Source: Treponema sp.
GTDB lineage: Bacteria > Spirochaetota > Spirochaetia > Treponematales > Treponemataceae
Assembly: GCA_024687165.1 (NCBI GenBank)
Contig: JAILEY010000084.1
Coordinates: forward strand, 1-41,091
Direction: 5' to 3'
DNA length: 41,091 nt
Positions 12,366 to 17,425 of the stretch are shown piece after piece. The notes beneath the pieces were generated by a model. It made no database searches, was not told the origin of the DNA, and worked only from the letters and a program-made list of their open reading frames with translations. Positions within the stretch are counted from its first letter, which is position 1, and each line of letters opens with the position of its first letter. Both the position numbers and the translations under genes were made by a program.

Positions 12366-15300
12366 GTGTTTTTAAAAAGTCTTGAAATATTCGGTTTTAA
12401 ATCATTCGCTGACCGCACACATATTAATTTTGCTGACGGAATTACAGCTCTTCTTGGTCCAAACGGCTGTGGAAAGAGTAATGTCGTTGATGCAATAAAA
12501 TGGGTTCTTGCAGAAAACAAATCAAAAAATCTCCGTGCAGACAGCATGGAAGACGTAATCTTTAACGGAACAGAATCACGTCCCCAGCTTTCAATGGCGG
12601 AAGTTACTCTTACAATTGCAAATGAAAACGGACTTCTTCCTCTTGAAGATACTGAAATCGCAATTAAGAGACGACTCTACCGCAACGGTGAAAATGAATA
12701 TTACATCAACAAGGAACAGGTTGGTGCTACTGCAATCAGAAAGCTCTTCATGGACACTGGTGTCGGAAAAGCAGCTTACTCTGTTATGGAACAGGGAAAA
12801 ATTGACCAGATTCTTTCTTCTAAACCGGAAGACCGCCGTTACCTTTTTGAAGAAGCAGCGGGAATCAGCAGATCTAAATCAGAAGTTGCAGAAGCAGAAC
12901 GCGAAATTGAAAAGACAAAAGCAAATCTTGCACAGATTGAAATCGGTCTTGCAGAAACAAAACGAAATTACGAGACTCTCAAAGTTCAGTCTGATAAAAC
13001 TACAAAATACAGAAAGTTTCAGGACGACAAATTTAATTTTGAACTGGACATTCAGCTTTTAAAGCTCAAGGATTTTACACAGGACAGAGCCCGAAACGAA
13101 CAGACAAAAGCTGAGGCAGAACAGAAAAGAGATGATGCTGAAAAAGCAATCGAAGAGATTTATTCAACACTCAACGAAAACACTGATAAAATCAAGCAGC
13201 TTCAGGAAGAAGTAAACGCTAAGACTCAGGAAAACATTCAGCTTTTTGCGGAACAGAACGGAAAGAAAGAAATGGCCCGTCAGCTCCACGAACAGCAGAG
13301 ACAGATAAAAGAAAAAATCAGCCAGATTGAAAACCGCATTAAAAATACTCAAGAGCGAATTGAAGATTATAATGAAGAAATCGACAGCCTTAACGTTGAC
13401 CTTCATGAAAAAAACAAATCGATTGCAGACATCGTAAAGAACATCGACGGCTTCATTGAAAACATCAGAACCTCTTCCCTTCAGATTGAAGACAACAAGC
13501 GCGTAATCAGCACAAACGCAGGAAAAGTTCACAATCTTGATGCAGAACGTGCAGACCTTCAAAAGCAGCTTGCATCGATTACAGAAGACATCGTTACGGA
13601 ACTTGATGCAAAGCTTAAGGACGCAGGTTATTCTTCTCAGGCAAACAAAAAGGCAAAGGAAGAGCTTAACACTGAACTTGAAAAGATTAAGGTTTTTGTA
13701 AACGGCCGTGCAAATATTTTTAAGGATTTTGCGTCACTTCCTTCGCACTCAGAAAAAGACAGTTCTAAAATGGGAACGGATGCAGTTCAGGCTTTTACAG
13801 AACTTTTGAACATGTTCGAAAATATTTCTGCACTCATTGAAAACTATACAAAGACCACGCCTCAGTTTATTGACGATTTTTTAAGTCCTGAAGGTATCAT
13901 CACAAAGAAGCGCGGAATTGACAGTTCGATTGAAGAAAATCTTTTAAAGATTGAAGCAATCAACAGGGAAAACGAAGAGCTTACAGAAAAGAACAACGAG
14001 TTCAGCAAAAAAATTGATGAATACAAAGAGACTCTTTCAAAGCTCCAGATTACACGTGCAGAAATGGCCCAACAGATTACATCTTGTGAGCAGCAGATCA
14101 GCACGATTAAACGCTCTCTTGCTCAGGAAGAAAATTCTCTCAAAGAACAGAACGACGAACTTTTTGAAGAAACAAAAAGACAGGAAGAAAGCGACGATCA
14201 GATTCAGGAAGTTGAAGAAGCAATTGCAGACCTTGAACTCAGGGGCCGCCGTATTGCGGAAGAACTTAAGGATCTTGATAATCAGATTGCAGAATGTAAC
14301 AGCCGTGTAAGCGGTAAGCAGAATGCACTTGAAAAGAAGCAGGAAGAGAAAAAGAAATATCAGGCTCAGATTGAAAGATTCAGCATCGACATTGCAAGAA
14401 GCGAAACTGAAATCCGAAACATTAAGCAGAACTTCCAGGACAACTACTCGCGCGACCTTATGGAATTTGAAGAGAGGATGTACACAATTACAACACCGTC
14501 TGCAATTCTTAAGGAAAAACTTGCACAGACAAAACAGAAGATTCAGGAGCTTGGTTCAGTTAACCACATGGCCGTTGAACAGTTCGCAGAAGAAAAAGAA
14601 AGATTTGAACGTCAGCAGGCAAACTTTGATGACACAAAAAAGACTCTTGATAATCTTGTACGCGTCAGTGATGAAATCAGAACAAAATCTTCTGAGCTCT
14701 TCCTTGAAACTTATAATAAAATCAGAAGAAATTTCCACAACATGTTCCGCCGCTTAATGAACGGTGGACGAGCAGAGCTTAAACTTACAGACCCTGCAAA
14801 CATTCTTACAAGTGGTGTTGAAATTTACGCACAGCCGCCTGGAAAAAAACTTCAGGCAATTTCACTTCTTTCCGGTGGTGAAAAGACAATGACTGCCGTA
14901 GCACTTCTGTTTGCAACATATCAGGTACGCCCTTCACCATTCTGTCTTCTTGACGAAATTGATGCGGCTCTTGATGACAAGAACGTTGCCTCATTTGTAA
15001 GTACTCTCCGCGCATTCGGAAACGTAAGCCAGTATATCGTTATTACTCATAACAGAAAGACTGTAATGGGTGCTTCAACAATGCTTGGTGTTACGATGGA
15101 ATCTGCAGGTATTACAAAGGTTCTTCAGGTGCGTCTTGATGAAGACACGATGAACGGAAACATCACTTTTGATGATCAGAAGGACTTTGTGGAAGAAGAA
15201 GTTGCTCCGGAAGAAGGCATTGTTATTCCACCACGACCTCCGCGCCGTGAACACAATCCCGACGGAACATTAAAGGTTGTTCAGCCGGCACAACCTCAGC

Positions 15301-15407
15301 AAATTCAGACCGAACAGACAGAAGCAGTAGAAACAAAAGAAACGGAAAATGAAGCTTCTGCAGAAAATACAGCTGAAGAAAAAACAGATGGAGATGCTCA
15401 GCAGTAA
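12366..15407 (+). CDS. smc: Chromosome segregation SMC protein (short, atypical hinge)
   Basis: 1013 residues with a GTG start, supported by AAGGA at 12354. SMC forms ATP-driven DNA-loop-extruding dimers. The N-terminal head has FLKSLEIFGFKSFADRT and Walker A GPNGCGKSNVVDAIKWVL (about 31-48), then EEAAGISRSKSE. Long coiled coils follow. The C-terminal head has the LSGGEKTMTAVALLFA signature (about 835) and Walker B CLLDEIDAALDD (about 860). Usual bacterial SMC proteins are near 1150-1190 residues with a glycine-containing hinge; here the middle (about 400-520) is mostly charged and helical, and I cannot recognise a canonical hinge. A tail of about 80 residues rich in Pro, Gln and Glu follows the head. 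No scpA or scpB lies nearby. MukB- or RecN-like proteins are less likely because of the head motifs. Confidence 0.92.
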   Translation: MFLKSLEIFGFKSFADRTHINFADGITALLGPNGCGKSNVVDAIKWVLAENKSKNLRADSMEDVIFNGTESRPQLSMAEVTLTIANENGLLPLEDTEIAIKRRLYRNGENEYYINKEQVGATAIRKLFMDTGVGKAAYSVMEQGKIDQILSSKPEDRRYLFEEAAGISRSKSEVAEAEREIEKTKANLAQIEIGLAETKRNYETLKVQSDKTTKYRKFQDDKFNFELDIQLLKLKDFTQDRARNEQTKAEAEQKRDDAEKAIEEIYSTLNENTDKIKQLQEEVNAKTQENIQLFAEQNGKKEMARQLHEQQRQIKEKISQIENRIKNTQERIEDYNEEIDSLNVDLHEKNKSIADIVKNIDGFIENIRTSSLQIEDNKRVISTNAGKVHNLDAERADLQKQLASITEDIVTELDAKLKDAGYSSQANKKAKEELNTELEKIKVFVNGRANIFKDFASLPSHSEKDSSKMGTDAVQAFTELLNMFENISALIENYTKTTPQFIDDFLSPEGIITKKRGIDSSIEENLLKIEAINRENEELTEKNNEFSKKIDEYKETLSKLQITRAEMAQQITSCEQQISTIKRSLAQEENSLKEQNDELFEETKRQEESDDQIQEVEEAIADLELRGRRIAEELKDLDNQIAECNSRVSGKQNALEKKQEEKKKYQAQIERFSIDIARSETEIRNIKQNFQDNYSRDLMEFEERMYTITTPSAILKEKLAQTKQKIQELGSVNHMAVEQFAEEKERFERQQANFDDTKKTLDNLVRVSDEIRTKSSELFLETYNKIRRNFHNMFRRLMNGGRAELKLTDPANILTSGVEIYAQPPGKKLQAISLLSGGEKTMTAVALLFATYQVRPSPFCLLDEIDAALDDKNVASFVSTLRAFGNVSQYIVITHNRKTVMGASTMLGVTMESAGITKVLQVRLDEDTMNGNITFDDQKDFVEEEVAPEEGIVIPPRPPRREHNPDGTLKVVQPAQPQQIQTEQTEAVETKETENEASAENTAEEKTDGDAQQ

Positions 15408-15785
15408 ATGGAATTCCTGGAAAGATTAAAGGCAGGCATTAAAGATTTTCTTGAAGAAAATACAAAGCTTGCCGTCGCAATTTCTGTAGTTCTCACAGTC
15501 GCTCTTTTAGGAGCAGTAGTTGCAGTTGCTTTCCAGGATCCGCTTCCAAAAAAGAAGAAGAAAGCTGATATTAAACCTCCGCATCCATACGAAGCCGTTC
15601 AGGAATTTCTTCCGCCAAAAGGCAGTAATCTGACAGAAGATTATTATTTTTCAAGAGAACAGAATCCAAAATGGTCAGATGAGGAATTCAACAAATGGTT
15701 TACTGTTCCAACAGAAAAAGACAGAGAAGAACTTGGTGAAGCCAACGAGAATCTTATAAATGAATTACTGGGAGAAGTTCCATGA
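15408..15785 (+). CDS. Small single-pass membrane protein of the smc operon, unknown function
   Basis: 125 residues. The ATG follows the smc stop codon directly (TAAATG), and the end overlaps the next gene by four bases. The N-terminal 20 residues are amphipathic, residues 21-42 form one transmembrane helix (KLAVAISVVLTVALLGAVV), and a lysine run (KKKKK) follows, giving the start inside by the positive-inside rule only if the tail is cytoplasmic. The remaining 75 residues are acidic, Pro-containing and hydrophilic, with NPKWSDEEFNKWF. I do not recognise a family. Its position implies co-expression with SMC and the lipoprotein, but that alone does not show a shared function. Confidence 0.75.
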   Translation: MEFLERLKAGIKDFLEENTKLAVAISVVLTVALLGAVVAVAFQDPLPKKKKKADIKPPHPYEAVQEFLPPKGSNLTEDYYFSREQNPKWSDEEFNKWFTVPTEKDREELGEANENLINELLGEVP

Positions 15786-17425
15786 AAAAAACAGGAAGCA
15801 TCTTAATTTTAGCGGCAGTCTTATTTTTATTCTCATGTGCATCAACACCAGAAGCAGATTCTAAGAAGACAGAAGCTGTATCAGAAACAACTGTAGAAGA
15901 AGCTGAAGATAAAACAGAAGAAGCAGAAACTCCACAGGAGGAAATTGCAGAAACTCACCAGGAAGAAACAGAAGTTGAAACTGAAGAAGAAGCAGAAGAA
16001 ATTCTTGAGCCTGTTGAATCAGATATAATCGGCTGGTATGAAAGCGATCCTTCAGAAGTAGTCCTTTCTCCTATGAACACAGAACTTCCCGAAGCAATAG
16101 AAGAAAAAGAAGTAAAAGACGAAGTTGAAATTACAAAAATTCCTGTAACAGAAAATGAGCATGTTTTGGGAGAGTCAAAAGAAGGAAAGAAAATTGCCGA
16201 AATCACAGCTTCTGTAGATGAAGTTAAAAATGAAGTCGCTGATGTAAAGAAAGATGTCGTTGAAGTAAAAAAGGATGTTGAAAAAATCCGTGACGACATT
16301 AAAGAAATCAAAACAGAAAAAGAAGAAACAAAAACTGTAAAAGCAGAATCAAAACTTGCAAAGGCAGAACCAAAAGTTACAGTCCGCGAAGAAAATGCAG
16401 AGAAAAAAGAAAACGGAACTGTTACTGCACTTGGAGCAGATATTCCGGCTGAAACAGAAGAAAAAGAAATCGTTGCAGAACCTGTAATTACTCCAAGCAG
16501 AAAAGTTACAATGCTCAACAATCAGTATCTTGATATTGAATACCCTGGAACAGGCTGGATTTATCTTGGTGAAAAAAATAATTCAGCACTCATGCGTTAT
16601 TTTGGAAGAAAGCTCGGCTCTGAAAATACACTCTTTACACTCAGAAGCCGCGAAGAAGGAACTACAATTCTCCACTTCTATAAAAATGATGCGCTTACAG
16701 GCCACTACATTGATGACTATCTTGAAGTAGAAGTTAAAGGAATTAATACTACAACACACAGAGTTACAGCTCCACGCTATGCAGACATAGTTCCTTCACG
16801 TCCAGAAAAAAAGACTTTCATAAATGCAGAAGAAGAAATCAAAACTGCAAAAAAACTTGAAGAAGAAAAAAAATCAGCACAGACAAAAAAAGAAACAGAA
16901 AAAAAGCAGACTGTAAAACCAGTACCGGAAGTAAAAACTGCAACTACAAAAGTTCCGCAGCCTCAGCAGACGGAAGATGATAACGGAGCAAAAACTGTAA
17001 TCCAGACAACAGGCTCAAATGAAAGCATTCAGTCAAATGTAATTTCTGATGATGCAGAAGTTATTCAACCTCCGGCACAGACTGAAGAGAATACAGCTGC
17101 ACCAAAAACAAAAGTTCAGATTCAGAATACAAAGGATATGGTTGCAGACAAGATTCTAGAACTTGCTCAGGAAGCTTACAATAAAAAAGAATATGCAGCA
17201 TCCCTCGCCTACCTTGATGAATTCTTTGAAAAAGCAACAACAAGAATTGATGAAGGACTTTATCTTCAGGGACAGAATTTTGAATCAGCCTCTGAAGTGC
17301 GAAACATTAAAAGTGCACTTGAAACTTATGAAACGATTGTAAAAAAATATCCGCAGAGCATAAACTGGGCAAAAGCAAATGCACGCGTAACTTACCTGAA
17401 AAAATTTTATTTCAATATAAGATAA
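15782..17425 (+). CDS. Glu/Lys-rich lipoprotein with TPR-like C-terminus, unknown function
   Basis: 547 residues. A lipoprotein signal ends in LFSC with Cys19 as the lipidation site. Residues 20-230 are low-complexity, acidic and lysine-rich, with heptad-like runs (EVKNEVADVKKDVVEVKKD) predicting a coiled coil or extended spacer. Residues 240-325 form a compact beta-rich domain (KVTMLNNQYLDIEYPGTGW). A second low-complexity linker follows. The last 100 residues (LELAQEAYNKKEYAASLAYLDEFF and on) look like a TPR/YbgF-type repeat. It probably sits in the periplasm or outer membrane, reaching across the envelope. It is translationally coupled to the preceding small membrane protein. The function is not known. 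Confidence 0.75.
   Translation: MKKTGSILILAAVLFLFSCASTPEADSKKTEAVSETTVEEAEDKTEEAETPQEEIAETHQEETEVETEEEAEEILEPVESDIIGWYESDPSEVVLSPMNTELPEAIEEKEVKDEVEITKIPVTENEHVLGESKEGKKIAEITASVDEVKNEVADVKKDVVEVKKDVEKIRDDIKEIKTEKEETKTVKAESKLAKAEPKVTVREENAEKKENGTVTALGADIPAETEEKEIVAEPVITPSRKVTMLNNQYLDIEYPGTGWIYLGEKNNSALMRYFGRKLGSENTLFTLRSREEGTTILHFYKNDALTGHYIDDYLEVEVKGINTTTHRVTAPRYADIVPSRPEKKTFINAEEEIKTAKKLEEEKKSAQTKKETEKKQTVKPVPEVKTATTKVPQPQQTEDDNGAKTVIQTTGSNESIQSNVISDDAEVIQPPAQTEENTAAPKTKVQIQNTKDMVADKILELAQEAYNKKEYAASLAYLDEFFEKATTRIDEGLYLQGQNFESASEVRNIKSALETYETIVKKYPQSINWAKANARVTYLKKFYFNIR

Follow-up and report, generated by a model that had tools for sequence, protein, structure and literature searches.

Smc proteins of Treponema and other Spirochaetota lack a recognisable hinge and in most cases probably carry a helical tip at its position

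Models of SMC function assign ring closure, DNA binding and signalling to the heads to the hinge, which in canonical SMC proteins is an alpha/beta fold. A gene at positions 12366-15407 (+ strand) of the stretch of Treponema sp. DNA analysed here (41,091 nucleotides in length, hereafter the window) raises the question of what stands at the apex of an Smc protein when no such domain can be recognised. The open reading frame list of the window gives the gene a GTG start and a product of 1013 residues. An initial annotation, made from the sequence, had described this product as an SMC protein with both ATPase head halves complete, a charged and helical central region, an unusual tail, and a hinge that was either shortened or replaced.

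Judged by its matches, the gene product is the chromosomal Smc of the cell. It matches the NCBIfam model TIGR02168 with 754.7 bits (cut-off 567.35), its top NCBIfam match is Smc (among the best 25 of 39 matches), and the Pfam family SMC_N matches with 191 bits against a cut-off of 40. The alignment of residues 1-215 to residues 1-215 of B. subtilis Smc has no gaps, residues 722-926 align to the C-terminal head of that protein, and the ATPase motifs lie at residue 31 (Walker A), residue 835 (LSGG) and residue 864 (the Walker B glutamate). Walker A, signature and Walker B motifs are all in place across two ABC head halves, and the annotated pair of complete halves in a protein of 1013 residues is borne out by the motifs and the alignment. 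From this alignment and the motif positions, the N-terminal head half was placed at 12366..12875 (about residues 1-170, an approximate boundary) and the C-terminal half at 14601..15143 (about residues 746-926), on the + strand like every feature given below. The N-terminal arm helix runs over 12876..13622 (about residues 171-419, the start being approximate), as indicated by TIGR02168, which aligns residues 2-453 to model positions 1-452, and by modelled helices spanning residues 301-419 in the longer of two AlphaFold2 models and 384-419 in the model of the tip. The C-terminal arm helix (13896..14600, about residues 511-745) rests on a modelled helix at 511-639, with an approximate end taken from the B. 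subtilis alignment. Long antiparallel coiled-coil arms are thus present in the form of the predicted helices 301-419 and 511-639.

What the protein does not have is a recognisable hinge. SMC_hinge (PF06470) is absent from the 14 Pfam families that match it at E<=10, as are the MukB, MksB and zinc-hook families, and SMC_hinge exceeds its cut-off nowhere in the window genome (a draft of 87 contigs), where the sole weak match, of 12.1 bits, falls in a 334-residue ORF whose sequence suggests a secreted binding protein. A Pfam scan of 64 central regions, viewed for the 25 most matched of 469 families and so compatible with a rare weak hinge match in one member, returned coiled-coil-type families among those 25. 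The stretch between the heads is also short. We take S1090 and E1118 of B. subtilis Smc to be its signature and Walker B motif residues, and by both of these markers (S836 and E864 in the window Smc) the window protein has 254 residues fewer between its heads. The B. subtilis residue numbers are those of the mutants S1090R and E1118Q in the strain list of PMC5344682. Between its collinear parts (residues 454-516), the window Smc has about 64 residues where the TIGR02168 model has about 320, the C-terminal side being placed by subtraction. The zinc hook of Rad50 is held by cysteines; residues 383-560 contain no cysteine, and so no apical CxxC of the Rad50 type. The annotated absence of a recognisable hinge therefore stands, since no SMC_hinge match was found at E<=10 and no hinge fold in residues 380-560. 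Given that no alpha/beta hinge was found, we class the protein as an Smc variant and not as a canonical Smc.

At the position of the hinge, a helical tip is predicted (about residues 405-525; 13578..13940), on the grounds of an all-alpha AlphaFold2 prediction, a tip profile and conservation at residues 401-420 and 501-520. Two AlphaFold2 models, one of residues 300-640 (64 aligned sequences, mean pLDDT 92.0) and one of residues 383-560 (91 aligned sequences, mean pLDDT 94.4), are both all-helical and contain no strand. Their predicted order is an N-terminal arm up to residue 419, helices at 424-457, 463-497 and 502-506, and a C-terminal arm from residue 511. The first two of these helices, assigned by DSSP on the AlphaFold2 model, are tip helix B (13635..13736) and tip helix C (13752..13856), and the third, the short helix D, lies within the best conserved motif of the tip, FIDDFLSPEGIITKKRGID (residues 501-519; 13866..13922), which stands out in a conservation profile of 159 sequences and contains invariant or nearly invariant columns. 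The description of residues 400-520 or so as charged, helical and poor in glycine agrees with the count of 5 glycines and 36 D/E/K/R among 121 residues, and with the helices of the models. As modelled, the central region is more than a mere coiled coil, ending in a small helical domain with the conserved motif at 501-519.

Conservation is not evenly spread over this domain. Across the 159 sequences, the heads mostly reach 2-3 bits and most of the arms about 0.86-0.97, and within the tip the values are 1.21 bits for residues 401-420, 0.67-0.91 for 421-500 and 1.55 for 501-520. Because the first and last of these stretches exceed the arms and the middle one does not, it is the base of the tip that is conserved, and not helices B and C, which are in addition shortened in several spirochaete families. 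How far the tip motif lies from LSGG could be measured in all but 22 of the 159 sequences; the distance equals 326 residues in 41 of 69 sequences phylum-wide and in 45 of 68 closer relatives, and falls within 321-327 residues in 61 of the 69 and 64 of the 68.

Structural comparison of the longer model gave fragments of Smc arms among the best rows (5xg2, Z 16.3, rmsd 3.2, 237 aligned; 5nnv, Z 14.7, rmsd 3.0, 247 aligned). The yeast Smc2-Smc4 hinge with extended coiled coils was matched with Z 11.7 and rmsd 8.1 over 211 aligned residues, a value that does not discriminate in a list full of long coiled coils. For the isolated tip, Foldseek returned no match at E<=0.001 (the best was 0.08), the best VIA-align 2 row (Z 10.6, rmsd 13.7, 167 aligned) fell in the range given for helical bundles, and neither search listed a hinge structure. 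Comparison of the tip profile with PDB sequences gave weak matches, mostly to coiled coils and designed bundles, with a best E of 0.0047.

The missing hinge is, on the evidence of profile searches, a trait of the phylum and not a peculiarity of the window protein. We examined a sample of 296 Spirochaetota genomes together with 14 control genomes. TIGR02168 matches 280 of the 296 at E<=1e-30 (235 over the cut-off), and SMC_hinge matches nine at E<=0.01, exceeding its cut-off in one; among the controls, 11 of 14 have an Smc match and 10 of these 11 a hinge over the cut-off, the exception being Caulobacter. The sole Spirochaetota genome with SMC_hinge over the cut-off, G116, owes this to a 1083-residue JetC-like protein flanked by ORFs resembling JetA, JetB and JetD, presumably a cluster of the Wadjet JetABCD type, and its own Smc carries the helical tip. 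This Wadjet-like cluster (G116:C27:15000-28000, locus L082) lies near an integrase-like ORF. Weak hinge matches in eight genomes of one family, f6 (17-21 bits, below the cut-off), fall in ORFs of 561-573 residues some 18-28 kb into contig 1 and away from Smc, and were rejected as chance. Of the annotated shortening or replacement of the hinge, then, the replacement is backed by the domain searches, the collinearity with B. subtilis Smc and the predicted fold, and it is not special to the window protein. The annotation also expected such a hinge to change how the dimer forms, which may not hold: B. subtilis Smc works with an unrelated dimerisation domain at that position (PMC5344682).

The tip profile matches 242 of the 296 genomes at E<=0.001; some of these genomes also served to build it, and a few of the weakest matches may be chance coiled coil, as for example in G266, which has a match of 3.8e-5 and no Smc match. 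The search covered Spirochaetota genomes, and carries no implication of absence from other phyla. Among relatives that bear a species name, the tip is found in Treponema ruminis, T. berlinense, T. zioleckii, T. vincentii and T. saccharophilum; the best 80 of 388 genome-contig relatives are all titled Treponema, Spirochaetia, Spirochaetales or Spirochaetaceae, and a scan of viral contigs found no relatives of the tip.

Within the phylum, the tip varies. The motif was not seen in families f35 and f42, and the Borreliaceae-like family f6 retains hardly any of the tip, most of its genomes having no tip-profile match. The distance from Walker A to LSGG is 700 residues in Borreliaceae-like proteins as against about 804, and the motif of the tip lies 300 residues from LSGG in a Borreliaceae-like pair and 400 in four long-armed families (f29, f39, f46 and f47, represented by loci L041, L046, L050 and L056), which form one clade in a head tree drawn without an outgroup. 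Two of the four, L041 and L050, carry an EGxYTQKE form of the motif. The 74-residue step on the C-terminal side of the arm in this clade, seen in few sequences, is compatible with stepwise change of arm length. Four near-complete genomes, G149, G238, G266 (family f9) and G278 (f15), have no Smc match at E<=1e-30, and a repeated search of G149 and G278 at E<=1e-8 also gave none; Smc may have been lost in these four.

The partners expected of an Smc complex were found in the window genome, with ScpA (G000:C6:73202-73858, E 1.5e-30) adjoining ScpB (G000:C6:74127-74603, E 2.0e-52) and ParB on G000:C79. At E<=0.01, ScpA is found in 245 and ScpB in 250 of the 296 genomes of the phylum sample. ScpA is missing in every f6 genome listed, and ScpB is matched weakly in two of them (E 0.003 and 0.008). 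The ScpA result differs from that given for B. burgdorferi in PMC10406323, where a ScpA homologue is present and ScpB absent; a diverged ScpA may account for the difference.

At its other end, beyond the C-terminal head half, the window Smc continues into an acidic tail (residues 927-1013; 15144..15404), delimited by comparison with the tails of relatives, in which conservation is near zero beyond residue 960. The composition of residues 928-1013, which are acidic with a high content of E, Q, T and P, fits the annotated acidic Pro/Gln tail, but the tail is not unusual, being common to relatives in the family and order and containing a conserved short motif. This core, FVEEEVAPEEGIVIPPRPPRR (residues 941-961; 15186-15248), is kept in most Treponema relatives in the form F[VI]EE[DE]VxPEExxxIPPRPxKR while the remaining tail varies freely; families elsewhere in the order have a shorter core, EEDVxPEEGxxLP, and the Smc of most remaining spirochaetes has little sequence beyond the head. 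In its sequence, the core looks like a docking motif. By eye, the tail core (FVEEEVAPEEGI...) seemed as if it might be related to the tip motif (FIDDFLSPEGI...), but this idea was rejected when, for the window protein, 1340 of 2000 shuffled tails did at least as well. One hand-picked pair of short peptides gave 37 of 2000, but the pair was selected with hindsight and we do not count it in favour.

The ORF directly after the smc stop codon (15408..15785) encodes a protein of 125 residues that has a single hydrophobic segment and matches no Pfam family. A tblastn match to it was found at 76 of 110 loci searched, all 76 being among the 80 genome-contig loci (Treponema relatives, beside smc), and the protein may be a small membrane companion of Smc in Treponema. 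It is followed at 15782-17425 by a lipoprotein-like protein of 547 residues, whose long middle part is acidic and repetitive and whose C-terminal part resembles YfiO (E 7.1e-5, below the cut-off).

Arm lengths offer a further comparison. PMC5344682 gives arms of 344 residues for B. subtilis Smc, lengths of 253-267 and 330-373 as functional in that protein, and modes of 238, 341 and 515 for natural Smc arms. Subtraction from arms of 344 and an assumed hinge of 165-198 residues (198 being the length of the stretch 487-684 in the strain list, which includes the hinge) yields arms of about 254-270 residues for the window Smc when the tip is taken as 91 residues, and 240-256 when it is taken as 120; over all the tip and hinge starts tried, the estimate spans 239.5-270.5. 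At about 254-270 residues, the arms would fall in the short length class that is functional in B. subtilis (253-267).

How, then, might such a protein work? We think it reasonably probable that a small all-helical tip took the place of the canonical hinge early in the history of Spirochaetota, and that two Smc subunits would be joined at the apex by this tip. On this reading, neither the Smc-ScpAB ring nor its cycle of ATP use would differ from those of other bacteria, and the ATP cycle and the head-side ring are likely the same because heads, arms, kleisin and kite are alike. B. subtilis with an Smc fitted with the zinc hook of Rad50 grows normally on rich medium, and the pattern of arm lengths stays similar with this hook (PMC5344682); by analogy with such a swap the tip as an exchanged dimeriser is the simplest reading of the apex. 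It is odd, however, that helices B and C, the likeliest interface, are conserved no better than the arms and are shortened in several families, and the nearly tipless Borreliaceae-like family and the absence of the motif from f35 and f42 also speak against a dimerising tip. Two of these observations lend something to the idea that the hinge was simply lost, the tip merely capping a folded-back coiled coil and the subunits meeting only at the heads and through ScpA and ScpB: helices B and C show as much variation as the arms, and the Borreliaceae-like proteins, with their shorter distance from Walker A to LSGG, manage with almost no tip. We nevertheless regard such an open apex as rather unlikely, since the 501-519 motif and the 401-420 stretch are clearly constrained and the spacing from tip to head is nearly fixed, as would be expected if the apex has a job.

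That the best conserved part of the tip is the 501-519 motif could also mean that another protein binds it, joining the apex as a bridging partner or as a hinge supplied in trans, but no candidate was found, the genome has no SMC_hinge over the cut-off and its lone 12.1-bit match lies in the ORF resembling a secreted binding protein, so we hold this to be improbable. A canonical hinge diverged past recognition is a very unlikely explanation; PF06470 is imperfectly sensitive, missing Caulobacter, a control with an Smc match, at E<=0.01, but a hinge would have to be fitted into the short stretch at 454-516, and two high-confidence models contain no strand. An internal deletion, frameshift or assembly error might be suspected in a draft of 87 contigs, but this reading is refuted by the relatives, given that the same tip is found by profile in 242 of 296 genomes and at 80 genome loci, including those of the isolates Treponema ruminis and T. 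vincentii.

A search of the accessible literature found no earlier description of hinge replacement in spirochaete Smc, and we have moderate confidence that such a replacement has not previously been described in full. Soppa, writing in 2001 (Gene 278), is reported to have noted that a number of bacterial species have a much shorter hinge and much shorter coiled coils. In B. burgdorferi, ParB recruits Smc (PMC9712426). The chromosome arms of this species make no contacts with each other despite the presence of Smc, for which a missing ScpB has been suggested as a possible cause; the main text of the report in question (PMC10406323) makes no mention of 'hinge'. Spirochaetes with ScpA and ScpB but no hinge, of which the window genome is an example, would separate the hinge from ScpB as the cause of the Borrelia result. 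More generally, the zinc-hook swap made in B. subtilis has its natural counterpart in a phylum that lacks the hinge fold, and such a phylum lets the jobs of the hinge be separated. Were the open apex to prove true, a hinge-closed ring would be dispensable for bacterial chromosome organisation across an entire phylum.

Apical dimerisers other than the SMC hinge are carried on an ABC head and long arms by Rad50/SbcC, with its zinc hook, and by MukB/MksB. The window Smc differs from both in that its tip has no cysteine pair and the protein no Pfam match to MukB or zinc-hook families. It resembles the Smc-ScpAB of the B. subtilis type in its head halves, motifs and collinear arms and in having ScpA, ScpB and ParB in the genome, and is unlike B. 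subtilis Smc in having a helical tip and no hinge, in being 254 residues shorter between the heads and, by subtraction, in having each arm about 74-90 residues shorter. Among spirochaetes, Borrelia burgdorferi Smc (BB0045), called canonical in PMC10406323, would be another hinge-less Smc if family f6 is Borreliaceae, as its genome size, gene position and missing ScpB suggest; the f6 proteins are shorter still (frames of 819-823 residues), with the tip nearly gone, and, unlike the window Smc, come without ScpB. Closest in design is the engineered B. subtilis Smc(Zh), which likewise joins Smc heads and arms to an apical domain unrelated to the hinge, there a dimerisation domain, and was also made (PMC5344682) with shortened arms; that protein is man-made, whereas the tip of the window Smc is natural and has no cysteine in residues 383-560.
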